From positions 124,001 to 188,000 of the forward strand of contig NZ_JAEPQA010000003.1 of assembly GCF_017640745.1 (NCBI RefSeq): a stretch of DNA of 64,000 nt, in the 5' to 3' direction. Under the pieces are notes generated by a model. It saw nothing but the letters and a program-made list of their open reading frames with translations, did not search any database and was not told the DNA's origin. The position numbers were made by a program, and so were the translations under genes. Numbering within the stretch: the stretch's first letter is position 1; the number at the start of each line of letters is the position of its first letter. This document shows, in pieces, positions 44,847 through 52,617 of the stretch. This DNA is from Nisaea sp. (GTDB lineage Bacteria > Pseudomonadota > Alphaproteobacteria > Thalassobaculales > Thalassobaculaceae).

Positions 44847-44890
44847 TTCGTGTCCTGACAGGGGATCGTTTCAGGGAAGATCGGTCTCAT

Positions 44891-44916
44891 TTGTTGGATT
44901 GTCAACAATATGACAA
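44891..44916. promoter_or_regulatory. overlapping palindromes, probable GntR operator
   Basis: Two perfect inverted repeats overlap here: TTGTTG (44891-44896) with CAACAA (44903-44908), and TTGTCA (44899-44904) with TGACAA (44911-44916). They lie 45-70 bases upstream of the HAD start codon. The TTGTCA core suits FCD-type GntR regulators, and the operon encodes one. Confidence 0.6.
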
Positions 44917-45131
44917 ACAACGCCCTGAGAAGTCTGAAAGCGCTTCGCCGCGTGCTTCCAAAGCGCGAAATTCCGGCGCAATTCGCTCAGGCGTTCAGGT
45001 CTTGTTAGGAAATCCGCGATAGAAAAGGCCAGGCTTCCCGGAGCCCTCCGGAAATGCCCATGCGCGCACCGTCGGTGATGGTGTCTTCAACGAGTATGGA
45101 TAGCGTGCCGATGGTATCTGTTTCCTTGCCA

Positions 45132-45644
45132 ATGAGCTTCCAACATCGTGCTTTGCTGCCCGGTTGCATTCATATGGGGCTTGTTTTTCTGTCGATCGCT
45201 GCCTTGCTGGTGCTGAACACAGGTAGAGTCTCGGCGGAAACGATCCGGATGACCGGCATGACCGTCGATGGTGCCGTCCATGAAGTCACTCTCGATGAAA
45301 TCGACGAAACCGGAACCATCGAGGAAGTCGTCTACAATCCCTATGAAAAGGGAAAAGTCCGCTACTCCGGCGTTCTGTTGGACAAACTTGTCGCGCGGTT
45401 CGCAGACCCCTCTGTTACGACAGTCCGCATGACGGCGATCGACGATTACCGAACGGTTTTCGAAAAGGCCGAATGGCAGAAGTTCAGGATCCTCTTCGTC
45501 ACCCGGCGGAAAGGCGAGCGCTTCGGGCTTGAGAAAAAGGGGCCGGCCCGGATCGTCTATCCGGATTTCGACGCCGAGAAGGAGATTTACCAGGTCAATC
45601 TGCCGAAATGGATGTGGATGATTCAGGAGATCAAGTTCGAGTGA
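45132..45644 (+). CDS. periplasmic SUOX-fold protein, PruR-like pterin-binding candidate
   Basis: A 170-residue exported protein with a signal peptide (hydrophobic SIAALLVLN ending VSA). The mature part has the pattern of small molybdopterin-oxidoreductase-fold proteins: KVRYSGVLLDKLVARF, MTAIDDYRTVF, and GLEKKGPARIVYPDFD. In PruR of Agrobacterium a protein of this kind binds pterins and controls a membrane partner; the molybdenum-ligating cysteine is absent. Start is uncertain among several ATGs (45054, 45078, 45132, 45174); 45132 gives a signal peptide with a basic n-region. Its stop overlaps the kinase start as GTGA. Confidence 0.72.
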   Translation: MSFQHRALLPGCIHMGLVFLSIAALLVLNTGRVSAETIRMTGMTVDGAVHEVTLDEIDETGTIEEVVYNPYEKGKVRYSGVLLDKLVARFADPSVTTVRMTAIDDYRTVFEKAEWQKFRILFVTRRKGERFGLEKKGPARIVYPDFDAEKEIYQVNLPKWMWMIQEIKFE

Positions 45645-47080
45645 CTCCGCGCCGCTACCTGACAATCCTGCTGATCGGCGCGGTCTCTCTCATTGCCATC
45701 GGCGCCTATTTTTATCGGGAAGTGAACCGCATCCCGGTGCGCATCGCCGAGTCCGACGAGACGATGCTGAAGACGGACTCGATGCGGCATGTCTTCAAGG
45801 TCACCCTGCTGAACGGTCGCGCCTACGAGGCTTACCTGAGTTACATTCATACAGGGAACCCGGATGAGCTGAAGAAGGCGGTCAATTTCAGCAAGGCGTC
45901 CATCGGGTTCGCGGCCAGCGCCTATATTGATGACGATGCTCTCAAGTCGCGTGTAATTCCTATCATCCGGCGCAATCTGGAGATCACCGAGTCCATTTCG
46001 ACCCCCGAAGAGGCCGCCAGCCATCTCGCTCATTTCGAGCAGAACATGGCCGACGTCTATCGCGAGACCGAACATATCGAGCAGGATATCTGGGTTTCGT
46101 TCCTGGAAGACTTCGTGCGCTTTCAGACCGGTGAGAAGCGGGCTCTGATTGCCTACAAGTTCTCCGCCGCCCTGGCGGGCGCGATCCTCTTGATCATGCT
46201 GTTCTTCTTTTTCAGGCAGCGCTCGCTGATCCGAATCATCGAGGCGCGCGAGCACGACCTTGAGGAATTGATCGAACTGCGGAACGAAGAGCTTAATCTG
46301 CTGCGCGAGACCCAGGCGGCGGCGGAAGCGGCCGACCGGGCAAAAACCGAATTCCTGGCGCTGATGAGCCACGAGTTGCGTACCCCGCTGAATGCCATCG
46401 TCGGTTTTTCGGAGATCGTCAAACGCGGAGACCAGAAATGGGTTTCGCATGAAAAGACGACCGAATACGCGGCGGCAATCCACAGCGCGAGCATGCACTT
46501 GCTGCATGTCATCAATGACATCCTTGATCTGGCGAAGATCGAGGCGGGGCAGATTCAGCTCGACGAGAGCCAGATCGAGCTGTCCAGGCTGATCCAGCGC
46601 GCCGAGCTGCTGATCCGGCAGCGTGCCCAGGAGAAGGGCCAGATCTTGCGTGCCGATCTGGACCCATCATTGCCGATGCTGATCGCTGACGAGCGTCTGG
46701 TGTTCCAGATCCTCATCAATCTCCTCACGAACGCCGTTAAATTCACCGGACAGCGTGGCGAGATCGTTGCCTTCGCCGCTCTCTCGGGTGACGGTGGTCT
46801 CGATCTCGGCGTGCGGGATAACGGCATCGGGATCGAGGAAGCGGACCTTACCAAGGTCATGCAGCCGTTTGGCCAGTTGCGGCAGAACAGCTCTGTCACG
46901 CATGAAGGAACCGGGCTCGGCCTGCCGCTGTCGAGACGCTTCGCCGAGCTGCACGAGGCATCGGTCTCTATCGAAAGCCGGGTCGGCGAGGGGACGACCG
47001 TTACGGTGCATTTCCCTGCCTCGCGCGTCGTCGAACGTCCTGTCGTCTTAAACGAACCGGTTGCTGCGGAAAGCCTCTGA
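45641..47080 (+). CDS. membrane sensor histidine kinase coupled to the PruR-like gene
   Basis: A 479-residue kinase. TM1 is about residues 5-25, a roughly 140-residue periplasmic helical domain follows, and TM2 is about 169-192. The phosphoacceptor H244 lies in FLALMSHELRTPLNAIVGFS. The ATPase has N-box LINLLTNAVKFTGQ, G1 VRDNGIGIEEADL and G2 EGTGLGLPLSRR. GTG 45641 overlaps the preceding stop as GTGA, with GGAG upstream; a longer frame starts at 45608. The periplasmic domain is probably the target of the PruR-like protein. No response regulator is adjacent. Confidence 0.9.
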   Translation: MTPRRYLTILLIGAVSLIAIGAYFYREVNRIPVRIAESDETMLKTDSMRHVFKVTLLNGRAYEAYLSYIHTGNPDELKKAVNFSKASIGFAASAYIDDDALKSRVIPIIRRNLEITESISTPEEAASHLAHFEQNMADVYRETEHIEQDIWVSFLEDFVRFQTGEKRALIAYKFSAALAGAILLIMLFFFFRQRSLIRIIEAREHDLEELIELRNEELNLLRETQAAAEAADRAKTEFLALMSHELRTPLNAIVGFSEIVKRGDQKWVSHEKTTEYAAAIHSASMHLLHVINDILDLAKIEAGQIQLDESQIELSRLIQRAELLIRQRAQEKGQILRADLDPSLPMLIADERLVFQILINLLTNAVKFTGQRGEIVAFAALSGDGGLDLGVRDNGIGIEEADLTKVMQPFGQLRQNSSVTHEGTGLGLPLSRRFAELHEASVSIESRVGEGTTVTVHFPASRVVERPVVLNEPVAAESL

Positions 47081-47130
47081 CCCGGGCCGGTAGGGCTGTA
47101 TTCTCCCGCCGCGTTGCGGTGGAAGGAGTC

Positions 47131-47158
47131 GAACAGCCCGGCTGGGACCGGGCTGTTC
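47131..47158. terminator. long hairpin between convergent genes
   Basis: GAACAGCCCGG (47131-47141) pairs perfectly with CCGGGCTGTTC (47148-47158) around a six-base loop. Neither strand shows a T-run after the stem, so it is at best a factor-assisted terminator for the convergent kinase and phosphatase genes. Confidence 0.5.
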
Positions 47159-47184
47159 GCAACGCAGCTTCGGGGAGTCGACCC

Positions 47185-49570: not shown

Positions 49571-49617
49571 GTTCCTATTATTATGATACGCGTGTGGATC
49601 CCGAGACCCGGTCCAGA

Positions 49618-52617
49618 ATGCAGGAAAACCTTACAGTGGGCGGCAAATATCCCTTGCCCGGGAGCGGCGGCAGGCAGCCTGGATCTGGCCGGGGCGGAGC
49701 GCGCATGACGGTTGCCCTTGTGGCTGTCACGATGTTGCTCGTCCTTGGGGCGGATATCTATTTCGTCGCCCGTCAAAATGCCGAGAACGAAAACCGGCAT
49801 GTCGAGATCCTGACCTCCGAAACGCAGGAAGCGGCGAACGCGCTGGCGCAGTTCATCACGGAACGCCAGCGGATGATCGAAACCTTCGCCATCGACAATG
49901 AGGACCTGCTTGCCGAGTACGCCCAAGCGGTGGACGACGAGAGGCTCCGAAGCCGGATCGATGGGCGTCTGGAGCGCTGGTTTCCCGGCTATTTCACTTT
50001 CACTTTGGCGAATACGGAGGGAGTGGACATCGTCGACGATCTGGAGGGGTTCGTCGGCGCCGCCTGTCAGCAGAACATCAAGACCTATCTATCCCGCCTG
50101 TTCGGGACCGGCCTGGATGCCAGCTACGAAACCGTCATTCATCCCCAGGCACATAACTACCACTTCGATGTCATGGCGCCGTGGCGCAGCAGCGAGGAAT
50201 TGAACGGGGTCTTCTTCGTCAGTTTCTATCCCGACATTCTGCAATCCCTGATCAAGTCGTATCAGAGTCCCGGTCATAAGCTGGTCCTGATCCACCGGGA
50301 TCGCGATCATCTCATCGAGGTCAGCGCAGAGGGCACGCGGGATGTCTTCGGAGCGCATCGCGATATCACGATGAGTGCCGAGGAGATCGCCGAAATCAGG
50401 GCGATCCGGGACATCCCAGGTTCGCTCTGGCGTCTGGTGGGATATGTCGAGCCCGGCCTGGTTGCCCGCGAGAATGCGGAGAACTGGCGGATTGCCGCAC
50501 TCTTCGCGCTGTTCGTGCTGGCCGCCGGCGGCCTCAGTCTGGCAAAGATTCTGTCGCTCGATCGTGCGCAGGCACGTGCCTGGTCGGACCTGAATATATC
50601 CAACAAACATCTGGCGGAGATGGCGAAGGCCCAGACTGCGCTGCGCGAGGCGGCGGAGAGCGGGGAGAAGGCGAAAGCGCAGTTCCTCGCGTCGATGAGC
50701 CATGAAATCCGCACACCGCTCAACGCGATCATCGGCCTGACGGACCTCACTCTCAAGACCGATCTTTCCGAGCATCAGCGCGACCATCTCACGCGTGTCG
50801 CACGTGCCGGCCGCTCTTTGCTCGGCCTGATCAACGACATTCTGGACTTCTCCAAGATCGAGGCAGGAAAGCTGCAGATCGAGTCGGTCGAGTTCGACCT
50901 CGATGAGGTGCTCGAAAATCTCGCGACCGTCGTCAGCACAAAGATCGAGGAAAATGCCAACGAACTGGTGATTGCGGTCGACAGGAACATTCCGTCCGCG
51001 CTTTGCGGCGATCCGCTGCGTCTGGGACAGGTCCTGATCAACCTTGTCGGCAATGCCGCAAAATTCACCCAGCGCGGCGAGATCGTCGTCGATGTGGCGC
51101 GGGCGGTCGAGGACGAACGGGAATGGCTGAAGTTTTCGGTGCGCGACAGCGGCATCGGCATGACCGAGGCGCAGGTGGAACGACTGTTCCGGCCGTTCAC
51201 GCAGGCCGACCAGTCGGTGACCAGGACCCATGGCGGGACCGGGCTCGGTCTCAGCATCTCGCGCGAACTGGTGGAGGCCATGGGCGGCACCATCGGGGTG
51301 GAAAGCGTCCCGGGAGAGGGCAGCCATTTCTTCTTCCGCGTCCCGTACGAGCCGGTCGAAGGAGCGGTGCCGCGGCGCGGCTTCGAAGGCATCGATCCGC
51401 GGGCGACGAGGGTCCTCGTGGTCGATGACAATCGCGTGGTGCGCGAGACCCTGAGAGAGGCTCTATCCAGTCTCCGCTTCAAGGTCGATGTGGCAGAGTC
51501 CGGCGCGGAAGCCTTGGACATGTACCGGAAGGCTCAGACGCTGGCGCCCTATTCGGTCGTTCTCATGGACTGGCGGATGCCGGAAATCGACGGGATCGAA
51601 ACCATCCGCCGCATCCAGTCGGAGAACGCGGAGCGGCAAATGCCCGCGATCATCATGGTCTCCGCGGAAGACATGCAGGCAATCGCGGGCGAGCTCAAGG
51701 TGCTCGGTGTCGCGCATTTCGTCCAGAAGCCGATCAATACGTCCTTCCTGATCGACACGATGATGGCGTTCTTCGAGACCGGCTCGGATCGGCGCCCGGT
51801 CCATGCGCGTCTGCGGGCGGAGAGCAGCGACCCGCGCGCGGCGTCCGCCGGCATCCATCTGCTTCTCGCCGAGGATGTCGAGCTGAACCGCATGGTCGCT
51901 CTCGGCGTGCTCCAGAACGCGGGCATGACGGCGGATGTGGCGGAGAACGGAAAGCAGGTTCTCGAGATCCTGGAACGGGAGGGCCCGGACAGATATGCCG
52001 CCGTCCTGATGGATATCGAGATGCCGGAGATGGACGGTCTGACGGCGACTCGAAAGATCCGCAGCGAGCTGGGTTTCACGGACCTGCCGGTGATCGCCAT
52101 GACGGCGCATGCCCTTGCCGAGGAGCGGGAGCGCTGCCGGGAAGCCGGAATGGACGCGCATATCAGCAAACCCTTCGAGGCTGCAGAGCTCATCTCGACG
52201 ATCAACAGATTCGCTGCGAAATCCCGTGCCGGGGGGATGGAGCCCGGTGAGGGCGCGGTCGACCTGGATCTGGAAGAGGTCACCGCACGCCTGATGCTGC
52301 CGCGGGAGACAATCGTCCGGTTGCTGGCAAAGTTCCGAACCGATTATGACGGGTGCCCGGCGGACCTGAAACGGTTGCTTGATCGGGGTGAGGTGGAAGA
52401 GGCGCGGCGGCTGATGCATTCGGTAAAAGGCGTGGCTTCTTCGCTCGGCCTTGGCGCGGTGAGCCGGGTCGCCGAAGAGATCGAGCAGGGGCTCGAAGGC
52501 GGGGCTGGCCGACCGAATCCGGCGGACCTCGAAAGATTCGAGGATGCACATGCGCAGACCATGCGCGCGATTTCTCGCGAACTTCAGCTTCGCGAGCCGG
52601 AGCCCGACCGCGCCTGA
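49618..52617 (+). CDS. hybrid sensor histidine kinase with two receivers and Hpt
   Basis: A protein of about 1000 residues. TM1 is near residues 30-50, then a periplasmic sensor of about 240 residues (RNA-free, dCache-like: RWFPGYFTFTLANTEGVDIV) and TM2 near 292-310. HisKA carries the phosphoacceptor H362 in ASMSHEIRTPLNAIIGLTD; the ATPase has QVLINLVGNAAKFT. Receiver 1 has VLVVDDNR and VLMDWRMPE, receiver 2 HLLLAEDVELNR and VLMDIEMPEMDG, and the C-terminal Hpt has RLMHSVKGVASSLG. The whole phosphorelay is thus in one chain. Start is unsure: GTG 49594, ATG 49618, or ATG 49705 with GGCGGAG. No output regulator is adjacent. Confidence 0.92.
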   Translation: MQENLTVGGKYPLPGSGGRQPGSGRGGARMTVALVAVTMLLVLGADIYFVARQNAENENRHVEILTSETQEAANALAQFITERQRMIETFAIDNEDLLAEYAQAVDDERLRSRIDGRLERWFPGYFTFTLANTEGVDIVDDLEGFVGAACQQNIKTYLSRLFGTGLDASYETVIHPQAHNYHFDVMAPWRSSEELNGVFFVSFYPDILQSLIKSYQSPGHKLVLIHRDRDHLIEVSAEGTRDVFGAHRDITMSAEEIAEIRAIRDIPGSLWRLVGYVEPGLVARENAENWRIAALFALFVLAAGGLSLAKILSLDRAQARAWSDLNISNKHLAEMAKAQTALREAAESGEKAKAQFLASMSHEIRTPLNAIIGLTDLTLKTDLSEHQRDHLTRVARAGRSLLGLINDILDFSKIEAGKLQIESVEFDLDEVLENLATVVSTKIEENANELVIAVDRNIPSALCGDPLRLGQVLINLVGNAAKFTQRGEIVVDVARAVEDEREWLKFSVRDSGIGMTEAQVERLFRPFTQADQSVTRTHGGTGLGLSISRELVEAMGGTIGVESVPGEGSHFFFRVPYEPVEGAVPRRGFEGIDPRATRVLVVDDNRVVRETLREALSSLRFKVDVAESGAEALDMYRKAQTLAPYSVVLMDWRMPEIDGIETIRRIQSENAERQMPAIIMVSAEDMQAIAGELKVLGVAHFVQKPINTSFLIDTMMAFFETGSDRRPVHARLRAESSDPRAASAGIHLLLAEDVELNRMVALGVLQNAGMTADVAENGKQVLEILEREGPDRYAAVLMDIEMPEMDGLTATRKIRSELGFTDLPVIAMTAHALAEERERCREAGMDAHISKPFEAAELISTINRFAAKSRAGGMEPGEGAVDLDLEEVTARLMLPRETIVRLLAKFRTDYDGCPADLKRLLDRGEVEEARRLMHSVKGVASSLGLGAVSRVAEEIEQGLEGGAGRPNPADLERFEDAHAQTMRAISRELQLREPEPDRA

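Follow-up and report, generated by a model that had tools for sequence, protein, structure and literature searches.

The two genes described here, one for a small exported protein and the other for a membrane histidine kinase, probably form a periplasmic pterin adaptor-receptor pair similar to PruR-DcpA and PruR-DTB, with a sensor that is either different or extremely diverged. They lie in a stretch of 64,000 nucleotides from Nisaea sp. (contig NZ_JAEPQA010000003.1, positions 124,001 to 188,000 of the forward strand), referred to throughout as the window (Table 1). PruR is a pterin-binding protein that acts on the periplasmic domain of the protein encoded with it in an operon, which is either a DcpA-type c-di-GMP enzyme or a histidine kinase (Rucker et al., 2026 review, PMC13259868); the kinase pairs are called PruR-DTB (DcpA-TorS-BaeS), and the surveyed set held more than 5,500 unique sequences (PMC13259868). 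The original prediction had presented the kinase partner as a new departure, which it is not, and because PruR-DTB has been published the pterin-responsive two-component system that it proposed falls within a known class. The window pair is real and of a kind already described, with a receiver subtype that is outside the published PruR-DTB definition. Since the survey picked its pairs by the DcpA-type domain (PMC13259868), the class found in the window would be missed by it.

The exported protein, the kinase and their coupling

Our structural and sequence comparisons bear out the suggestion, first made from the DNA alone, of a small exported SUOX-fold protein that lacks the molybdenum cysteine. 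The N-terminus is hydrophobic and ends in VSA (a signal judged by eye), and the sole cysteine, C12, lies inside this signal peptide, leaving the mature protein Cys-free. Although no family claims the protein in Pfam and NCBIfam searches, phmmer against the PDB matched 7rkb (3.1e-11) and 7kos (3.6e-9), and also 7kom and 7kp2, all 'pterin binding proteins'. An AF2 model built from four sequences (pLDDT 86.9, pTM 0.83) superimposed on all five PruR entries (7kom, 7rkb, 7kou, 7kos and 7kp2) at Z 16.6-18.0 with an rmsd of 2.2-2.4 across 129-132 residues, whereas sulfite oxidases and YedY reached Z 13.1 or less. Inspection of the pocket, which had been proposed as a check on the prediction, showed that the A. 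tumefaciens PruR residues Tyr104 and Trp160 are present as Y106 and W162, and that Asn102 is replaced by an aspartate (D104), a substitution reported for described PruR groups (PMC13259868). The predicted PruR identity holds on these grounds, the protein having a fold closest to the solved PruRs, no Mo-Cys, both Trp160 and Tyr104, and a length of ~170 residues.

The downstream protein carries intact HisKA (8.9e-19) and HATPase_c (3.2e-25) domains, and an AF2 model of its residues 1-191 (pLDDT 86.0) consists of a TM helix, a helical bundle and a second TM helix, in agreement with the two-TM kinase with a helical periplasmic domain that was originally described. Its GTG start at 45641, in the context AGTGAC and with AGGAG 11 nt upstream, sits inside the pruR stop codon just as the proposed GTGA overlap would have it. 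In a second species of the genus (G001) both the overlap and the genomic neighbourhood are kept, so that the arrangement of the two genes is not due to chance. Among the window ORFs none that adjoins the kinase gene encodes a response regulator. Elsewhere in the window a large hybrid histidine kinase (49594-52617; 1007 aa, by eye with a pair of receiver domains and a terminal part like Hpt) is syntenic in G001 beside the same genes.

Table 1. Features of the pruR-kinase locus, in window coordinates
Feature	Position	Strand	Basis or remark
Presence/absence segment between HAD and acid-phosphatase genes	44917..47183 (site 44847-47184)		Found in window and G001, missing from three further species of the genus
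pruR-like gene for an exported protein of 170 aa with a SUOX-like fold and without Moco-ligating Cys	45132..45644	+	ORF, phmmer, AF2 fold match
Predicted signal peptide, cleavage after VSA	45132..45236	+	By eye from sequence; putative
D104-D105-Y106 codons, matching the A. tumefaciens PruR Asn102-Asp103-Tyr104 pocket motif with Asn to Asp	45441..45449	+	Alignment
W162-M163 codons, matching PruR Trp160-Gln161; Trp conserved, Met instead of Gln in window clade	45615..45620	+	Alignment
GTGA overlap, kinase GTG start within pruR TGA stop	45641..45644	+	Sequence; conserved in G001
Membrane histidine kinase of 479 aa without a receiver domain	45641..47080	+	ORF, domain search
Sensor module (bundle of periplasmic helices between TM1 and TM2), not recognisable as a DcpA/DTB domain	45662..46216	+	AF2, profile comparison
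R49 to K53 codons, both residues invariant in 7/7 members; about where the canonical WX3QX3E lies	45785..45799	+	Putative positional correspondence
HisKA domain, H-box HELRTP	46340..46549	+	Domain search
HATPase_c domain	46688..47023	+	Domain search

The sensor and its relation to the DcpA/DTB domain

With 192 residues including its TMs the window sensor is of much the same length as canonical partners (median 194), and we compared it, together with its counterparts in the other members of the PruR clade described below, with a reference set of WX7E partners of PruR gathered in this analysis; A. tumefaciens DcpA itself was not part of that set, so the sensor may still be a homologue that has diverged extremely. 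The WX7E motif of PruR-DTB, present in most canonical partners, was absent from the periplasmic domain of all clade members checked, and the SR motif is likewise absent from the clade sensor. In profile-profile comparison the clade sensor scored 4.6% (five rows) and 34.5% (six rows) against the canonical domain across 14-24 columns, whereas 14 canonical subfamilies of similar depth, each set against canonical domains less than 30% identical to it, scored 97.9-99.9% across 161-192 columns. None of the seven clade sensors has detectable homology to the DcpA/DTB domain. Weak HMM scores obtained with the TMs kept (5-17 bits) vanished once the TMs were cut: the clade members then scored 0.2-6.0 bits on the canonical profile, within reach of shuffled clade sequences (up to 7.7 bits) and reversed sensors (up to 15.1 bits), and 52 held-out canonical domains all scored 12.1 bits or more.

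The periplasmic part of the clade sensor has seven invariant positions (R49, K53, Y65, A86, G89, F90 and E147), of which R49 and K53, when counted from TM1, coincide with the Gln and Glu of the canonical W-x3-Q-x3-E, a correspondence of position only. Were the two domains homologous, R49 and K53 might represent a charge inversion. A direct match of T-x3-R-x3-K to W-x3-Q-x3-E was rejected as the product of a forced multiple alignment, to which the profile comparison lends no homology support. The matches from a fold search with the sensor were all weak (best E 0.0096) and of the kind that helical bundles typically give. They include XylFII-LytS and QseG-QseE, in which a periplasmic protein also relays to a helical kinase sensor, although their adaptor families are unrelated to PruR. 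Judging from sequence, the window sensor is best read as a different or an extremely diverged receiver domain, the main uncertainty being between a new domain and an old one past detection, and as it is not recognisably DcpA-type the docking mode that is known does not carry over to it as a matter of course.

The PruR clade, its partners and its genomic setting

A search of genomes for SUOX-fold/kinase pairs, as had been suggested, does find them: they occur among the 121 distinct PruR-partner pairs that we gathered, nearly all from genomes of the window's class and phylum, and are also those published as PruR-DTB. The partner carries the WX7E tryptophan in 96 of the 104 pairs with the usual Trp-Gln in PruR, and in none of the 10 pairs with a Trp-Met PruR. 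We rejected the reading of this covariation as a series of independent events, as the tree gives only 2-3 independent pairs. In a PruR tree built without the Trp-Met/Gln columns the window PruR belongs to a clade that forms one side of a branch (SH-aLRT 95), with seven members found, one of them in a Vibrio and the others in Alphaproteobacteria: the window, G001, G131 (an alphaproteobacterial MAG, JANSWW010000001.1), Thalassovita gelatinovora, G530 and G846 (congeneric species of family f23), and Vibrio salinus. PruR lies directly upstream of the sensor gene in all seven, overlapping it or a few bases apart. The output is a plain kinase in the window, G001 and G131, a hybrid kinase in Thalassovita, G530 and G846, and GGDEF-EAL in Vibrio salinus, and one sensor combined with these three outputs is as expected of a receiver module.

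Within the clade Asn102 is changed to Asp and Gln161 to Met, the Arg of RxKGP is Glu in most members, and most have also lost the Trp equivalent to A. tumefaciens PruR W70; the first three changes imply that ligand or docking may differ. The Trp-Met PruRs of the window clade and of a group in family f201 may be one lineage (AU p 0.855). A scan of the genome contigs with a single PruR sequence gave no match, and a scan with a three-row PruR alignment gave three loci. In the f201 group (L072 in G700, L077 in G772 and L089 in G487) the partners of the Trp-Met PruRs are GGDEF proteins, and their sensor scored 16.7% against the canonical DcpA domain and 1.2% against the window-clade sensor in profile comparison; these sensors are possibly a third class of PruR receiver.

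Set beside PruR-DTB (e.g. Ruegeria pomeroyi WP_011045932.1), the window pair is similar in its two-gene unit, with an exported PruR upstream of a two-TM kinase, and in PruR fold, pocket Tyr/Trp and sensor length. However, its sensor has neither WX7E nor the SR motif and no detectable DcpA/DTB homology, and in its PruR D102 and M161 replace N102 and Q161. Similar to A. tumefaciens PruR-DcpA (Atu3496, PDB 7kos/7kou) it has the PruR fold (Z 16.8-16.9), the gene order and a predicted adaptor role, but its output is a histidine kinase and not GGDEF-EAL and its receiver domain differs; within the clade, a GGDEF-EAL output like that of PruR-DcpA is found in Vibrio salinus.

The sensor is sparsely distributed. 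Its profile gave two clear matches among 398 genomes of the phylum, in the window genome and G530, both beside a clade PruR, and matches in 2 of the 218 genomes of family f23. A search of 118 genomes of the genus of G470 (thought to be Vibrio), a set that contained no known positive, found none. In three other species of the window genus the HAD and acid-phosphatase genes are adjacent, with 167-198 bp between them, and at the same gap the window has ~2.27 kb where G004 has 126 unalignable bases. The pruR-kinase pair is a presence/absence cassette within the genus, a pattern that fits either transfer or loss.

The window genome also encodes a canonical PruR with a WX7E hybrid kinase (contig C9, L022:7574-10034). 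A receiver-type response regulator gene follows this canonical pair, running on to about 11002, and a pair similar to it was found in G004 (L013). On another contig (C13, L150:1471-2650) a PruA-like SDR that passes NF006597 (287.5 against a cut-off of 281 bits), and whose next-best model is 'pteridine reductase', is encoded directly upstream of a FolB-domain gene, and we regard this locus as probably supplying reduced pterins. Thalassovita, too, encodes an SDR of this family, upstream of pruR with uvrC in between, and a similar one occupies the corresponding place in G530 and G846. The order PruA-like SDR, uvrC, pruR, hybrid kinase was observed in three Rhodobacterales members (L057:1759-5402, L153 and L154), a linkage that may be older than the PruR-sensor pair.

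Proposed working, alternatives and meaning

The model that we favor is built on what is observed at the locus and in the clade, namely the PruR fold and pocket residues, the intact kinase domains, the conserved gene coupling, the distinct sensor and the three outputs. Further support comes from the PruA-like SDR of the genome, from the location of both clear sensor matches beside a clade PruR, and from the published kinase partners of other PruRs. The PruR-type protein would be exported to the periplasm, where a small and probably reduced pterin would bind in its truncated SUOX pocket, and the resulting pterin-PruR complex would dock on the bundle of periplasmic helices in the kinase. This would in turn raise or lower autophosphorylation and phosphotransfer, with a response regulator encoded elsewhere as the presumed target. 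The sensor without WX7E would be matched to PruRs of a clade in which residues of pocket and rim are altered.

The same pair could also be an ordinary PruR-DTB whose DcpA-type sensor has diverged past recognition, with W-x3-Q-x3-E turned to [TVA]-x3-R-x3-K in the same helix, the PruR rim altered to match and the mechanism unchanged. The shared length, topology and gene order speak for this view, as does the location of the invariant R49 and K53, counted from TM1, where canonical partners have Gln and Glu. We nevertheless hold it to be rather unlikely, given the distance between the clade sensors and the canonical controls in profile comparison, TM-cut scores that fall inside the shuffled range and below every held-out canonical domain, and the loss of the SR motif as well. 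Less likely again is that the exported protein has left pterins behind, keeping its fold and either binding another ligand or, with none, regulating the kinase as a constitutive subunit. The joint changes in pocket and rim (N102D, RxKGP Arg to Glu, Q161M, and loss of the W70 equivalent in most members) would fit such a departure, but the residues linked to pterin binding, Tyr104 and Trp160, are retained, described PruR groups also include some with Asp at 102, and pteridine-reductase-type SDR genes occur in the genome and, in three Rhodobacterales, lie two genes upstream of pruR on the far side of uvrC, even if that linkage may be older.

The SUOX-like fold is also what a small sulfite-oxidase-like molybdoenzyme would have, next to a kinase that is functionally unrelated to it. 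Although the window protein shares the core fold with sulfite oxidase and YedY (MsrP), it has been shortened to that core (135 aa), has no Mo-ligating Cys, so that no enzymatic site is expected, and is far closer in fold to PruR, and its overlap with the kinase gene is conserved; we therefore give this explanation almost no weight. Returning to the adaptor-receptor pair, a stronger version can be put forward only tentatively and on less than even terms: that a PruR lineage has become coupled to a second, non-homologous receptor, insulated from the canonical PruR-DTB of the same cell and with kinase, hybrid-kinase and c-di-GMP outputs.

Extracellular pterin signalling in bacteria is a new field, built mainly on one pair, PruR-DcpA. 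A clade with a different receiver beside a canonical pair in one genome offers a way to separate the PruR residues that choose the receptor from those that choose the pterin, and the presence of two PruR pairs in one genome raises the question of whether two pterin channels run in parallel in one cell. More than one kind of receptor may be driven by PruR proteins, and if the second receptor is truly non-homologous, PruR would serve unrelated receptors as a general pterin adaptor instead of being the partner of a single domain family.
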